NCBI GenBank assembly: GCA_003696605.1
Contig: RFGV01000334.1
Coordinates: forward strand, 1 to 32,254
Reading direction: 5' to 3'
Length of the DNA stretch: 32,254 bases
From: Chloroflexota bacterium
Lineage (GTDB): Bacteria; Chloroflexota; Anaerolineae; Promineifilales; Promineifilaceae
Part shown: positions 22,266 through 27,935 of the stretch, one piece after another
Numbering within the stretch: position 1 is the first letter of the stretch
Layout: every line of letters starts with the position of its first letter
Position numbers and translations under genes: made by a program
Notes under the pieces: generated by a model
The model's database searches: none
Told to the model about the DNA's origin: nothing
The model's input: the letters and a program-made list of their open reading frames with translations, nothing else

Positions 22266-22297
22266 ATCATACACCTTCAACCTGACTTTAAGGTCAA
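22266..22297 (-). promoter_or_regulatory. MerR-type stretched promoter and dyad operator of the ZntA-like gene
   Basis: On the minus strand TTGACC (22292-22297) and TATGAT (22266-22271) are separated by 20 bp, longer than the optimal 17 and typical of promoters that MerR proteins activate by DNA distortion. Between them lies a 22-bp dyad (22273-22294) with arms ACCTTnAA and TTnAAGGT. The operator touches the last codon of the MerR gene and lies about 48 bp before the ATPase start. This strongly supports metal-induced control of the exporter by the adjacent MerR protein. Confidence 0.85.
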
Positions 22298-23082
22298 GGG
22301 GTTGGGGGGATTTGGTTTTCGGTTTCTTGCTCCAGGGCCAGAAAAAAGCGGGCAAAGATGAATGCGTTTTCGCCACGAGCCACAAAGAGATACCCTTCAT
22401 CGTTGTAAGTTAGTTCTGGCTCAGGATGAGTGTGTACCTGACAGTTGCCTTCCAGTTGTGCCAGTTGTTGCAGCGCGTGACCAATTTCGTCATCGTGGCC
22501 GACAACAAGGATGCAGTAGGCGTCATTTTCTTGCCAGATGTGGAAGTGCCGGTGACGCAGGATGTTAATGATGGTTTGGGCGGTATTGCTGGCCAGTACA
22601 CAGCCTGTGTATCGTCGTAGCCAGTCGAGAATGGTGGTGGAGGTGGGGGGAGCGGCCGGATTGGTGCAGATGTGGGAGAGGAGTTCGTCGAATGGGGTGG
22701 TTGTGTGTTGGGGGTGTTTTTGATGGAGGTCCTGGAGGAAGAGTTCGAGTTCGTGTTGCAGGACAAGGAGTTCGGTGATTTGTTTTTCCAGGGTCATGTA
22801 TCTGGTTTCGGCCGTTTTGATGAGTGTTTTGTCGTTCAGGTTGCCGTGTTCCCATGCATGGAGCAGGGTGCGGATGTCTGCCAGTGAGAAGCCTACTCTT
22901 TGGGCGCGTTGGATCAGGCGCAGGCGTTGTTCTGCTTTCGGGTGGTACAGGCGGTATCCGGCTTCAGAACGGCCGTTTGCCTGGAGTAATCCCTCCTTTT
23001 CGTAATACCGCAAGGTTGATGTGCGGACACCTACCCGTTTTGCCAGTTCACCAATTGTTAGCATGTGTGGTTCTTTTTTCAA
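22294..23082 (-). CDS. MerR-family regulator with an unusual C-terminal domain
   Basis: This 262-residue regulator has a MerR winged helix at about 8-75: MLTIGELAKRVGVRTSTLRYYEKEGLL, then a GYRLYH wing. A long dimerisation helix follows (about 85-122). Typical Zn, Cu or Pb sensors are about 130-150 residues and have a cysteine near the start of that helix; none is seen here, and the first cysteine is C139. Beyond residue 150 there is an extra domain of about 110 residues (ILDWLRRYTGCVLASNTAQ ... EGNCQVHTHPEPELTYND) with Cys and His that might bind the inducer. The start is TTG, chosen because GGAG lies 6 bases upstream; an ATG 18 bases in has no such site. It is upstream of and probably controls the ZntA-like gene. 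Confidence 0.88.
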   Translation of the reverse strand: MKKEPHMLTIGELAKRVGVRTSTLRYYEKEGLLQANGRSEAGYRLYHPKAEQRLRLIQRAQRVGFSLADIRTLLHAWEHGNLNDKTLIKTAETRYMTLEKQITELLVLQHELELFLQDLHQKHPQHTTTPFDELLSHICTNPAAPPTSTTILDWLRRYTGCVLASNTAQTIINILRHRHFHIWQENDAYCILVVGHDDEIGHALQQLAQLEGNCQVHTHPEPELTYNDEGYLFVARGENAFIFARFFLALEQETENQIPPTP

Positions 23083-23127: not shown

Positions 23128-23155
23128 TTGACATCTTTGGTGTGTTGCCTATAAT
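23128..23155 (+). promoter_or_regulatory. Consensus sigma-70-like promoter of the mntR-ABC operon
   Basis: TTGACA (23128-23133) and TATAAT (23150-23155) are both perfect hexamers, 16 bp apart, the best housekeeping promoter in the window. The predicted start of transcription falls within the operator pair just downstream. A divergent weaker promoter for the MerR gene (TATGAT on the minus strand near 23108) shares the same intergenic space. Confidence 0.85.
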
Positions 23156-23186
23156 TTAGTCATACCTAAATTTAGATTTGCCTAAA
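23155..23186 (+). promoter_or_regulatory. Tandem DtxR/MntR-type operators, TTTAG-N6-CTAAA twice
   Basis: Two 16-bp inverted repeats abut without a gap: TTTAG-TCATAC-CTAAA (23155-23170) and TTTAG-ATTTGC-CTAAA (23171-23186). The first overlaps the -10 hexamer and both cover the transcription start. Their form resembles DtxR/IdeR/MntR boxes. They lie immediately before the DtxR-family regulator gene, so metal-dependent autorepression of the whole operon is the natural reading. Confidence 0.85.
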
Positions 23187-23197
23187 TTTTTGATTAG

Positions 23198-23935
23198 ATG
23201 CAACGTATTCAAATGACACAAACTTACTCGCAAGCGTTTGAAGATTATCTGAAAGTTATCCACAAGCTGGTGCGGCGAGCCGGGCGGGCAACAACCAGTG
23301 AAATTGCTCGTTGTCTGGATGTCAGGCCGGCTTCGGTGACGGGGATGTTGCAAAAGATGGCGGAGTTGGAGCCGCCGTTGGTGTCATATGAGAAGCATCA
23401 AGGGGCAGTGCTTACGGAGGCGGGGGAGGTAGAGGCTTTGCGGGTTATTCGCCGACATCGGTTGCTGGAGCTGTTTTTGCATGAGTATTTGAATTATAGC
23501 TGGGATGAGGTGCATGAGGAAGCGGAACGGCTGGAGCATGTGATTTCGGATAAGTTGGGGGCGCGTATTGCGGCTTTGCTGGGAGATCCAGATCGGGACC
23601 CGCATGGGCATCCGATTCCTTCGGCTGATTTGGTGTTACGGCCGTTGACGGAGTTCCCTTTGTCCCAATTGCCGGTGGGAGGATGGGGGATTGTGCGGCG
23701 TGTGCGCGATGATGAACCGGCTGTGTTGCGGTATGTCGGGCGGTTGGGGTTACGGCCGTTTGCCCCAATACGGTTGGTGTCCCATGTGGCGCTGGATGGC
23801 ACGTATCATGTTTTGGTGCTGGAGACTGGGGAAACGGTGGTGTTAGGGACGGCCGTTGCCGAGGCCATTTTTGTTGATCACCTGTCTGTGCCGCTAATGA
23901 TTACCAATCAATCCAATGCAGAAGATGAGGACTAA
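23198..23935 (+). CDS. mntR: DtxR/MntR-family metal-dependent repressor
   Basis: This 245-residue metalloregulator has an N-terminal winged helix (SQAFEDYLKVIHKLVRR, then TSEIARCLDVRPASVTGMLQKM). The metal-binding and dimerisation helices follow, with HRLLELFLHEYLNYSWDEVHEEAERLEHVIS and the family's DPHGHPIP turn. A C-terminal SH3/FeoA-like domain runs from about 165 to the end (LPVGGWGIVRRVRDD ... GETVVLGTAVAEAIFV). It probably senses Mn2+ or Fe2+ and shuts down the importer that follows. ATG 23198 is taken as the start; ATG 23213 (MTQTYS) is equally possible because neither has a good Shine-Dalgarno. The substrate-binding gene begins 2 bp after its stop, so the regulator is the first gene of a five-gene operon. 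Confidence 0.9.
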   Translation: MQRIQMTQTYSQAFEDYLKVIHKLVRRAGRATTSEIARCLDVRPASVTGMLQKMAELEPPLVSYEKHQGAVLTEAGEVEALRVIRRHRLLELFLHEYLNYSWDEVHEEAERLEHVISDKLGARIAALLGDPDRDPHGHPIPSADLVLRPLTEFPLSQLPVGGWGIVRRVRDDEPAVLRYVGRLGLRPFAPIRLVSHVALDGTYHVLVLETGETVVLGTAVAEAIFVDHLSVPLMITNQSNAEDED

Positions 23936-23937
23936 AT

Positions 23938-24879
23938 ATGAAGCGAATGGAATTGATTCTATTAATGTTGTTAACGCTGATTGGTCTGGCAGGTTGTGGC
24001 AATGTTGGACAAGGTCGGGCGTTTGCTGCCGATGAGCAACGACTGAAAGTGGTGACTACCACCGGACATATTGCTGATGCTGTGCAGAATGTGGGTGGAG
24101 AGCATGTGGCTGTGGTGGGGTTAATGGGGCCGGGCGTTGATCCGCACTTGTATGTGGCCAGTGAGGGGGATGTGCTTTTGTTGGCAGAAGCGGATGTCAT
24201 TTTTTATAACGGTTTGTTTTTGGAAGCACAGATGGAGAAGGTGTTGGAACGGATTGGGGAACGGAAAACGGCCGTTCCTGTTGCCGAAAGCATCCCCAAA
24301 ACTCGCCTCATTCCATCCAGCACCTATACCGATGAATACGACCCCCACGTCTGGTTTGATGTAGAACTGTGGATGATAGTTGTTGCCACCATTCGCGACA
24401 CACTTATCCAGGCCGATCCCACCCATGCTGCCGACTACGAAGCCAATGCAACCGCCTATCTGGCAAAACTTCAGGATTTACATGAGTATGTCAAATCTCA
24501 GGCAGCACGAGTGCCCGAAAAACAGCGAGTGCTCATTACAGCACATGATGCATTCAGCTACTTTGGGCGTGCCTATGGTTTTGAAGTACGTGGTTTACAA
24601 GGCATCAGCACTGCTTCTGAAGCCAGCACAGCCGATGTGCAGGCATTGGCTGATTTTATTGCTGAACGGCAAATACGGGCATTGTTTATCGAAACATCTG
24701 TACCCGTGCGAAACGTGGAAGCGGTAAAAGCTGCTGTTGCTGCCAGAGGGTTCGAGGTAACAATTGGCGGCTCTCTTTTTTCCGATGCGCTTGGTGATCC
24801 GGGCACACCGGAAGGGACCTATATTGGCGTGGTTCGCCATAACATTGACACCATTGTAACTGCCCTGCTGGGTGAATAA
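23938..24879 (+). CDS. mntA: Metal ABC transporter substrate-binding lipoprotein (MntA/ZnuA/TroA family)
   Basis: This 313-residue cluster A-I solute-binding protein captures Mn2+ or Zn2+ outside the membrane. A lipoprotein signal ends in LAGC with C20 as the lipidated residue. Predicted metal ligands are H70 (GVDPHLY), H137 (YDPHVWFD), E252 (FIETSVP) and D283 (FSDALGD). The His-His-Glu-Asp set is that of Mn2+-binding members such as MntC and PsaA, whereas zinc-specific members usually have three His and a His-rich loop, which is absent here. GAGGA inside the end of mntR serves as ribosome-binding site. It is the second gene of the operon. Confidence 0.92.
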   Translation: MKRMELILLMLLTLIGLAGCGNVGQGRAFAADEQRLKVVTTTGHIADAVQNVGGEHVAVVGLMGPGVDPHLYVASEGDVLLLAEADVIFYNGLFLEAQMEKVLERIGERKTAVPVAESIPKTRLIPSSTYTDEYDPHVWFDVELWMIVVATIRDTLIQADPTHAADYEANATAYLAKLQDLHEYVKSQAARVPEKQRVLITAHDAFSYFGRAYGFEVRGLQGISTASEASTADVQALADFIAERQIRALFIETSVPVRNVEAVKAAVAARGFEVTIGGSLFSDALGDPGTPEGTYIGVVRHNIDTIVTALLGE

Positions 24880-24900
24880 GTGCCAAATTGGGAGGCAAGT

Positions 24901-25692
24901 ATGACAGAAAGACGATTTGCAATTGAAGTGGAAGACCTGACATTAGCATATCAGGACAAGCCGGTGTTGTGGGATATTGATTTGCACGTACCGGAAGGAA
25001 TTTTGATGGCCATTGTGGGGCCAAATGGGGCTGGTAAGACAACTTTGATTAAGACGATTTTAGGGTTGCTGAAACCGGCTGCTGGTCGCATTACGATTTA
25101 TGGCAAGCCGTTTGTGGCACAGCGCAAGCTGGTTGCCTATGTGCCGCAACGGGGGAGTGTGGATTGGGATTTTCCGACAAATGTATTGGATGTGGTGATG
25201 ATGGGGCGATACGGCCGTCTTGGCTGGGTGAAATGGCCGGGTCGCGAAGATCGGGAGTTGGCGATGGAGGCTTTGCGCAAAGTTGGTATGGCCAATTTTG
25301 CCCATCGGCAAATTAGCCAGTTGTCTGGTGGTCAGCAACAACGGACATTTTTGGCGCGGGCGCTGGTACAAGATGCCCAAATTTACTTTATGGACGAGCC
25401 ATTTCAGGGGGTAGATGCCACAACAGAACGGGCAATTATTCAATTGTTGAAGGAGTTGCGCGCGGCTGGAAAAACAGTGGTTGTTGTCCATCATGACTTG
25501 CAGACGGTATCAGAGTATTTTGATTGGGTGACATTATTAAATGTACGTCGCATTGCCAGCGGGCCAGTGTCACAGGTGTTTACAGAAGAGAACTTGCGGT
25601 TGACGTATGGCGGGAAGGTGGCGTTTTTAAGTAAAACGGCCGTTTCCCAAAGCACTCCCGATACACTACAGCCAGCCAGCAGCGGAGGGTAA
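24901..25692 (+). CDS. mntB: Metal ABC transporter ATP-binding protein
   Basis: This is the ATPase subunit of a Mn/Zn-type importer, 263 residues from the chosen ATG. Walker A is GPNGAGKT (40-47), Q-loop Q83, signature LSGGQQQR (141-148), Walker B YFMDEP (162-167) and H-loop H198. The segment [30 protein letters not shown] is characteristic of manganese/zinc/iron chelate uptake ATPases. GGGAGG precedes this ATG; an upstream in-frame GTG at 24880 has no such support. It lies 21 bp after the binding-protein gene and 3 bp before the first permease gene. Confidence 0.93.
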
Positions 25693-25695
25693 CCA

Positions 25696-26835
25696 ATGGA
25701 ACTGTTAAACAGTCTGCTCTTCGACTACACACTACGTACTGTGGCACTCGGTGCAGCCACATTGGGCATTGTTAGCGGTGCATTAGGCTCATTCGCCGTA
25801 TTGCGCCGCCAAAGCTTGCTGGGAGATGCGATGTCCCATGCAGCACTGCCTGGTGTTGTCATTGCCTTTATGCTTACCGGCAGCAAAACACCGGTCATTC
25901 TCCTGGTGGGAGCGGCCGTTGCCGGTTGGTTGGGCGCACTACTCATGAACGGCGTTGTACGCAACACCCGCATCAAAGAAGACAGTGCGCTAGGCATAAT
26001 CCTTTCTGTCTTCTTCGGCTTTGGCCTTATGTTACTCACTTTTCTGCAACGCAACCCAGATGCCCGTCAGGCAGGGTTGAACAGTTTTCTGTTTGGTCAG
26101 GCTGCCACCTTGCTCATATCCGATGTAATTCCAATGGCTATTTTAGGTACCATTGTTTTGTTACTTGTGCTTATCTTTTGGAAAGAATTCAAGCTTTTGA
26201 GTTTCGATCGGGACTTCGCCGCCAGTTTAGGGTATCCGGTGGCCTGGCTGGATGTCGTTCTAACCAGTTTATTGGTGCTGGCTATCGTTGTGGGGTTGCA
26301 AGCGGTTGGTGTGGTGTTAATGAGTGCGATGGTTGTTGCGCCGGCAGCGGCTGCCCGCCAATGGACCGATCGATTGGGTGTGATGGTATTCCTGGCCGCC
26401 CTGTTTGGGGCAATAGCAGGTGTTGGTGGTGCAATGATAAGCAGTTTGGGGTCGGGATTGTCAACGGGTCCGGTTGTTGTGTTGGTGGTCAGTGGCATTG
26501 TGCTGCTTTCCTTACTCTTTGCCCCTAACCGCGGGCTAGTATGGAATTGGGTACGACAACAGCGGGATCGGCGAAAGCTGCGCTTGCAGTCGGTGTTGAC
26601 TAACATGTATTACCTGGCAGAGCAACACGACGATATGGCTCATCCCCATGCGGTTACTGTTTTGCAGGCAATGAATTTTGGTCAAGGTGGGGTACGTCGT
26701 AGTTTGCATGTATTAAGAGAGCGGGGGTTGGTTCAGGAATCCAGCTCAGGGTTTTGGGCGTTGACTGCGGAAGGTGTTGAAGAGGCGCGACAGTTGATTG
26801 ATTCACGTCGGGCAGGAAAGGGGGGTGACAGATGA
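25696..26835 (+). CDS. Metal ABC transporter permease with C-terminal winged-helix-like tail (1)
   Basis: This is a membrane subunit of the ABC-3 family. The 379 residues comprise about eight transmembrane helices (1-280), including LGDAMSHAALPGVV (42-55) and VGLQAVGVVLMSAMVVAPAAAARQ (199-222). A cytoplasmic extension of nearly 100 residues (about 285-379) follows, which ordinary members of about 270-290 residues lack. The tail reads like a winged helix: a helix with LTNMYYLAEQHDD, an AVTVLQAMNFGQGGVRRSLHVLRERGLV helix-turn-helix, and GFWALTAEGVEEARQLI as wing and final helix. GGAGGG precedes the ATG. It overlaps the next gene by 4 bases (ATGA). Confidence 0.92.
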   Translation: MELLNSLLFDYTLRTVALGAATLGIVSGALGSFAVLRRQSLLGDAMSHAALPGVVIAFMLTGSKTPVILLVGAAVAGWLGALLMNGVVRNTRIKEDSALGIILSVFFGFGLMLLTFLQRNPDARQAGLNSFLFGQAATLLISDVIPMAILGTIVLLLVLIFWKEFKLLSFDRDFAASLGYPVAWLDVVLTSLLVLAIVVGLQAVGVVLMSAMVVAPAAAARQWTDRLGVMVFLAALFGAIAGVGGAMISSLGSGLSTGPVVVLVVSGIVLLSLLFAPNRGLVWNWVRQQRDRRKLRLQSVLTNMYYLAEQHDDMAHPHAVTVLQAMNFGQGGVRRSLHVLRERGLVQESSSGFWALTAEGVEEARQLIDSRRAGKGGDR

Positions 26836-27935
26836 GTGTGCAACTGGAAGTGCAATTGATTGCGGTTGTGGTAGCGGTTGCCTGTGCTTTGCCGGGGGTA
26901 TTTTTGGTTTTGCGGGGCATGGCCATGATGAGTGATGCAATTAGTCATACGGTTTTGCTGGGTATTGTGTTGGCGTTTTTCCTGGTGGGTGATCTGGATT
27001 CTCCGTTGCTGATTGTGGGGGCGGCATTGATGGGGGTGCTGACGGTGACGCTTGTGGAGCTATTGAATCAGACGCAATTGGTCAAGCAGGATGCGGCGAT
27101 TGGGTTGGTGTTTCCGGCGTTGTTTAGTGTGGCGGTTATTTTGATTTCCCGGTTTGCGCGGGGTGTGCATTTGGATGTGGATGCGGTGTTGTTGGGGGAG
27201 TTGGCGTTTGCGCCGTTTGATCGGGTGCAGTTTTGGGGATTGGATGTGCCGATTGCTTTGGCTGTGATGGGGGGGATTTTGGTATTGAATGGGTTGTTTA
27301 TTGGTTTGTTTTATAAGGAATTGAAGTTGGCGACGTTTGATCCGGCATTGGCGGCGGCGTTGGGGTTTTCGCCTGTGTTGTTGCATTATGGGTTGATGAC
27401 GCTTGTGTCGGTAACGGCCGTTGGGGCGTTTGACGCGGTTGGGTCTGTATTGGTCGTGGCGTTGATGATTACTCCTCCGGCAACGGCTTATTTGCTGACC
27501 AATCGCTTGTCTCATATGTTGGGTTTGAGTGCCGTCATTGGGGCGGGGAGTGCGTTGGCGGGTTACTGGTTGGCGCGTTTGTTGGATGCGAATATTGCAG
27601 GTTCTATGGCCACAATGACTGGGGCTATCTTTTTGGTGACGTTTTTGCTGGCGCCGGAACGGGGAATTGTGGCGATTTTGCGACGGCGACAACGACAACG
27701 GTGGGAGTTTGCACAGGCTGCGCTGACGATTCATTTGCTGCATCATGAAGATTCGCCACAGGCGGATGAGGAGTGTCGTGTGGATCATTTGGGTGAGCAT
27801 TTGCGGTGGCAACGGCCGTTTGCCGATGAGGTGGTGCGGTTGGCCCGACGTCATGGACTGGTGACACAAGATAACGGCCGTTTGTACCTGACCGACAAAG
27901 GGCGTCAGACTGTGCAGGATGCCATCGTCCGATAG
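26832..27935 (+). CDS. Metal ABC transporter permease with C-terminal winged-helix-like tail (2)
   Basis: This is a second ABC-3 permease, 367 residues, which should form a heterodimer with the first. Family segments are MSDAISHTVLLGIVLAF (33-49) and VGAFDAVGSVLVVALMITPPATAYLL (197-222). It too carries a cytoplasmic tail (about 284-367): ALTIHLLHHED, then DHLGEHLRWQRPFADEVVRLARRHGLV and GRLYLTDKGRQTVQDAI, again an HTH-plus-wing pattern. The two tails are related in layout but not close in sequence. Translation is coupled to the first permease by an ATGA overlap. It is the last gene of the mnt operon; no clear terminator follows within 200 bp. Confidence 0.92.
   Translation: MSVQLEVQLIAVVVAVACALPGVFLVLRGMAMMSDAISHTVLLGIVLAFFLVGDLDSPLLIVGAALMGVLTVTLVELLNQTQLVKQDAAIGLVFPALFSVAVILISRFARGVHLDVDAVLLGELAFAPFDRVQFWGLDVPIALAVMGGILVLNGLFIGLFYKELKLATFDPALAAALGFSPVLLHYGLMTLVSVTAVGAFDAVGSVLVVALMITPPATAYLLTNRLSHMLGLSAVIGAGSALAGYWLARLLDANIAGSMATMTGAIFLVTFLLAPERGIVAILRRRQRQRWEFAQAALTIHLLHHEDSPQADEECRVDHLGEHLRWQRPFADEVVRLARRHGLVTQDNGRLYLTDKGRQTVQDAIVR

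Follow-up and report, generated by a model that had tools for sequence, protein, structure and literature searches.

The two permeases encoded at the end of a metal-transport operon in the window, that is, the whole stretch of 32,254 nucleotides of a Chloroflexota contig analysed here, each carry a long C-terminal extension (positions 25696-27935), which raises the question of what these tails are and what they do to the transporter. The operon lies on the + strand and comprises five genes, for a DtxR/MntR-type regulator, a metal-binding lipoprotein (SBP), an ABC ATPase, and the permeases P1 and P2 (Table 1). Both permeases match the ABC-3 model PF00950 far above its cut-off of 20.1 bits (238.1 bits for P1 and 152.9 bits for P2), they share the operon with an SBP (PF01297) and an ATPase (PF00005), and their frames overlap by four bases (ATGA). 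The regulator consists of a winged helix, a dimerisation domain, and an FeoA/SH3 domain; its best NCBIfam model is that of MntR (NF047407), under its cut-off, and the NCBIfam Mn/Fe ATPase models likewise match the ATPase below cut-off.

The operator-like site preceding the regulator consists of tandem AATTTAG/CTAAATT palindromes, with 18-nt arms that are 83% complementary and two perfect pairs of 7-8 nt at a spacing of 6 nt. Judging from its sequence and position, it is a probable MntR-type operator, the target of the soluble regulator. A MerR-family regulator gene (22294-23082, - strand) diverges from the metal operon and shares with it the short stretch between the genes in which the operator-like site lies.

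Table 1 Coordinates of the features discussed. Positions are those of the window, except in the last two rows, where they follow the identifier of each locus.
Feature	Position	Strand	Basis
Tandem palindromic operator-like site	23153..23189	.	inverted repeats, just upstream of regulator start
Soluble DtxR/MntR-type regulator	23198..23935	+	PF01325 3e-12, PF02742 7.5e-31, PF04023 6.5e-12
TroA/ZnuA-type metal-binding lipoprotein (SBP)	23938..24879	+	PF01297 3.9e-81
ABC ATPase	24880..25692	+	PF00005 2.5e-30
Permease P1 (TroC position), ABC-3 domain and tail, 379 aa	25696..26835	+	PF00950 1.5e-70, residues 12-275
P1 tail, residues 285-379, basic linker then winged helix	26548..26832	+	AlphaFold2 mean pLDDT 93.0, conservation, DtxR profile match 95.1%
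P1 conserved His	H311 26626-26628, H316 26641-26643, H318 26647-26649	+	tail alignment
Permease P2 (TroD position), ABC-3 domain and tail, 367 aa	26832..27935	+	PF00950 1.5e-44, residues 7-272
P2 tail, residues 284-367, basic linker then winged helix	27681..27932	+	AlphaFold2 mean pLDDT 91.1, Foldseek, conservation
P2 conserved His/Glu	H301 27732-27734, H305 27744-27746, E314 27771-27773, H319 27786-27788, H323 27798-27800	+	tail alignment
Anchored DtxR-FeoA loci, first set	L038:7301-8326, L077:7254-8357, L132:4710-5720, L133:4242-5321, L164:4918-5982
Anchored DtxR-FeoA loci, second set	L165:4703-5752, L166:4825-5910, L167:4317-5384, L168:4971-6002

The ABC-3 match covers P1 up to residue 275 and P2 up to residue 272, leaving about 95-104 residues behind it. 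The same genome encodes two further ABC-3 permeases, whose open frames reach only 296 and 280 aa, and the solved importers PsaBC and ZnuBC, although of the same permease family, are tail-less (282-290 aa for PsaC-type chains, 260 aa for ZnuB). AlphaFold2, given alignments of 74 (P1) and 78 (P2) tail sequences, folds both tails as winged helices with no segment below a pLDDT of 50, in the order H-H-H-E-E-H for P1. Foldseek against the PDB gives modest best E-values, from 2e-3 to 5e-3, with a probability of 1.00 and consistent neighbours: for P2 many MntR/DtxR-family chains, e.g. 6kta, 2h09, 2qq9, and 2f5f, as well as SloR and MepR, and for P1 MarR-type regulators, the manganese repressor DR2539, and IdeR. 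The earlier note, which had described 85-95 added residues of winged-helix-like spacing on each permease, is therefore borne out on both counts, and the predicted tails are ordered rather than disordered. The basic linker that follows the last membrane helix suggests that the tails probably lie on the cytosolic side. Both are conserved as protein across phyla, indicating that they result neither from read-through nor from a chance open frame.

The two tails differ from each other, as had been proposed. BLASTP finds no similarity between them, so they were not retained as BLAST-detectable duplicates, and profiles alone link them (93.5%). Profile comparison also connects each of them to the winged helix of the DtxR proteins encoded in these operons (95.1% for P1 and 93.1% for P2), whereas the maximum among 90 column-shuffled control comparisons is 8%. 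In the PDB the P1-tail profile has seven weak matches, four of them to members of the DtxR family. The tails and the DNA-binding domain of DtxR/MntR regulators thus have a common origin, a kinship computed at the level of profiles. The earlier assignment to the DtxR type holds in this sense of descent and not as membership of a Pfam family: PF01325 (Fe_dep_repress) is not among the matches of the tails and their relatives (74 and 78 sequences), and a Pfam scan of both permeases finds no PF02742 metal-binding/dimerisation domain. All Pfam and NCBIfam models stay below cut-off on the tails of the window, the best of them (HemN_C, HVO_A0261_N, PaaX, and WH_AprA) giving weak winged-helix matches, so the tails represent an unnamed domain in those libraries.

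Tails and operon recur together in about ten phyla and are not peculiar to one genome, which makes the earlier suggestion of an occurrence in some phyla correct but understated. Nearly all of 80 relatives of P1 come with both tails, in a set that is biased because the query contained the tail; these relatives include Chloroflexi, Desulfobulbus and other Desulfobacterota, Dadabacteria, Poribacteria, Electryonea, Bacteroidetes/Rhodothermales, Sumerlaeota, Omnitrophota, Bipolaricaulota, and others. A less biased count in 151 Chloroflexota genomes gives the P2 tail in 32 (E <= 2.3e-22), always on a TroD-like permease, and the P1 tail in 18 of those 32 (E <= 3.4e-16). Relatives of P2 with at least 45% identity align through the tail in all 39 Chloroflexota genomes that have them, the source included. 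One Chloroflexi MAG has P2 split into two adjacent frames of 203 and 184 aa (L067:3148-4311), reflecting a real break or an assembly error. Above a weak background, both tail profiles match only the C-termini of these permeases; stand-alone tail domains were not found in Chloroflexota, the weak matches inspected being DtxR/MarR regulators and membrane-anchored DtxR-FeoA proteins.

Outside the Chloroflexota, Paracoccus aestuarii has both tails, Deinococcus deserti only that of P2, and Fusobacterium neither. The annotated first permease of P. aestuarii (L116:3096-3923) seems to start late, with 275 aa including the P1-type tail. In the tree of the membrane domains, several tail-less P1 fall among tailed ones, including one clade of six with starred support. 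This nesting suggests that the P1 tail, which is missing in some lineages, has probably been lost more than once.

The features by which DtxR regulators contact DNA have disappeared from the tails. Ser46 and Thr48 are conserved in the recognition helix of the neighbouring DtxR; at these places the P1 tail has Gly and a highly variable residue, and the P2 tail a near-invariant Phe330 and a highly variable residue. The winged helices carry a mean net charge of -1.6 in P1 and -1.5 in P2, versus +1.8 in DtxR. DNA binding by the tails is therefore unlikely on the basis of their residues, and it can be performed by the separate soluble MntR-like regulator encoded beside the operator-like site.

The tails have instead gained other conserved residues, mainly His and Glu, and no conserved His occupies these positions in the DtxR winged helices from their own operons. 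Near-invariant in the P2 tail are H301 (99/99), H305 (97/99), E314 (98/99), and H319 (95/99); at position 323, about 80% of the sequences have His and most of the others Glu, with some Asn, Asp, Thr, and Ser. In the P1 tail, H318 (92/92) and H311 (89/91) are near-invariant and H316 is found in 71%. One helical turn separates H301 from H305, both on the helix 1 face with the conserved hydrophobic residues F293, L298, and L302, and likewise H319 from H323 in helix 2, a layout that might correspond to a two-helix metal site. H301, H305, and E314 are kept in all 11 loci whose P1 is tail-less, so a P2 site would not depend on P1, and an interface between the two tails is disfavoured as the sole reason for their conservation. 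The P2 tail of Deinococcus deserti is still winged-helix-like although most of the His/Glu are gone, which indicates that these residues are not required for every role of the domain.

Outside the permeases, the P2-tail profile scores best against proteins that combine a single N-terminal membrane helix with a winged helix, the DtxR metal/dimerisation domain, and FeoA domains. The part made up of anchor, linker, and winged helix aligns over its whole length with the permease C-termini (97.9% for P1 and 97.2% for P2), and the anchor itself matches only the segment of the permeases formed by the last helix and linker (about 90% for P1 and 72% for P2, at most about 14% for other membrane-domain segments). 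In those scanned, the winged helix fails the DtxR Pfam model and the metal domain (Fe_dep_repr_C) scores well. The gene is directly upstream of FeoB in all nine distinct loci (Table 1), L087 and L168 being counted as one, and FeoB is divided between two frames in every locus that shows both. In three of the nine, a single long operon reads DtxR-SBP-ATPase-P1-P2-[anchored DtxR-FeoA]-FeoB. This proximity to FeoB, together with the matching cassette, points to one membrane-proximal winged helix that serves two unrelated divalent-metal importers. The genome of the window also encodes a tail-less ABC-3 permease (L001) with the linker motif APxRG at its C-terminus, which suggests that the anchor derives from a permease rather than the reverse. 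The earlier idea that the tails tether a regulator to the membrane finds no direct evidence in the operon of the window, but relatives do possess a separate anchored DtxR-FeoA protein that shares both anchor and winged helix.

The reading that we prefer, and to which we would give slightly less than an even chance, is that the tails are cytosolic winged helices of DtxR descent, devoid of operator-binding features, whose His/Glu cluster senses the imported metal and regulates the importer. The earlier note had likewise suggested that the tails might sense metal and gate the transporter, which is plausible. The near-invariant His/Glu would bind the incoming divalent metal, presumably Mn2+, Zn2+, or Fe2+, in the cytosol. 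The metal-bound tail, held by its short basic linker to the last membrane helix beside the ATPase, could then slow or lock the transporter, resulting in trans-inhibition by a domain borne on the permease. The recurrence of last helix, linker, and winged helix on a protein whose gene immediately precedes that of the Fe2+ importer FeoB speaks for metal sensing, whereas the tail-less transporter of Fusobacterium, the loss of P1 tails in several lineages, and the Deinococcus P2 without most His/Glu speak against it, as does the placement of the regulatory domain on the ATPase, not the permease, in the trans-inhibited ABC importers that are known.

The main rival, which we regard as unlikely though worth serious consideration, is a structural or stabilizing role of the kind played by FeoC. 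FeoC is a winged-helix protein. As the tails would be, it is a small cytosolic partner of a metal importer, and it protects FeoB from FtsH (PMC10710835). The tails would similarly stabilize the P1-P2 heterodimer, dock the ATPase, or shield the permease from proteolysis, without sensing metal, and the conserved His/Glu would serve packing or protein contacts. The Deinococcus winged helix is consistent with such a role, as are W326 and F330 of P2, conserved at positions where DtxR would contact DNA, as expected of a protein contact surface. Nevertheless, the near-invariant His on the inner face of helix 1 and the H/E/N/D position look like ligands rather than packing residues, and P1 tails have repeatedly been lost while the transporter was kept. 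The tails also differ from FeoC, a separate protein with an Fe-S cluster, in having no conserved cysteine cluster and no FeoC match (PF09012) among the Pfam matches of either tail set.

An exit relay, in which His/Glu at the cytosolic mouth take the metal from the permease and pass it to cytosolic partners, agrees with the position of these clusters soon after the last membrane helix; we consider it improbable, as this function does not need a full DtxR-kin winged helix and homologues without tails exist in Fusobacterium and among the solved PsaC and ZnuB chains. More doubtful still is the binding or titration of the soluble DtxR/MntR regulator by the tails, which would couple transporter abundance or activity to transcription: tails and regulator are related and often encoded in one operon, but the tails do not include the DtxR dimerisation domain, and in many tailed operons the flanks retrieved contain no DtxR gene. 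Finally, that the tails are membrane-tethered DNA-binding regulators, as their fold and DtxR kinship could suggest, is very improbable given the replaced DNA-contact residues, the negative charge, and a soluble regulator with its own operator-like site in the operon.

Returning to metal sensing, the tails can be placed among known systems. With the DtxR, MntR, and IdeR repressors they share the winged-helix fold and detectable profile similarity; unlike them, they have no PF02742 domain, DNA-contact residues, or positive charge, and their His/Glu are at other positions. The regulatory domain of MetNI and ModABC is not known to be a winged helix. In these ABC importers, a cytosolic regulatory domain on the ATPase binds the substrate and blocks cycling (PMC10710835). 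The logic proposed here would be analogous, with substrate binding inside and the transporter stopping, except that the domain is carried by the permeases and not by the nucleotide-binding subunit. The TroABCD/TroR operon of Treponema is identical in content (SBP, ATPase, two ABC-3 permeases, and a DtxR-type regulator). TroD of T. pallidum and T. denticola has 366 and 367 aa, as long as P2, whereas TroC has only 304 and 298 aa (PMC2628430 Table 1), apparently without a tail of the P1 type. Treponema Tro fits a version with the P2 tail only, homology of the TroD tail being judged from its length, and this published length suggests that the architecture is old. Long TroD proteins and regulatory domains on ABC importers were known already; we found no description of the permease tails or of the membrane-anchored DtxR-FeoA proteins in the openly accessible literature, although other papers could contain one.

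We further propose, as a somewhat unlikely extension, that importers of divalent metals share a general module for feedback, a DtxR-related winged helix attached to the last helix of the permease, which is used by TroCD-type transporters in about ten phyla and, in its detached form, acts on FeoB. How ABC importers of Mn2+, Zn2+, and Fe2+ are shut off once the metal is inside is little understood, and the solved examples found here, of the PsaC and ZnuB types, have no tails. A widespread family whose members naturally carry two tails, one, or none, and a conserved domain in which the candidate ligands are clear, open post-translational control of metal uptake to direct tests. If the metal-sensing reading is correct, the DNA-binding domain of a repressor would have been re-used as a transporter part, and if the feedback module is indeed general, a transcription-factor fold would have been turned into a transporter brake.
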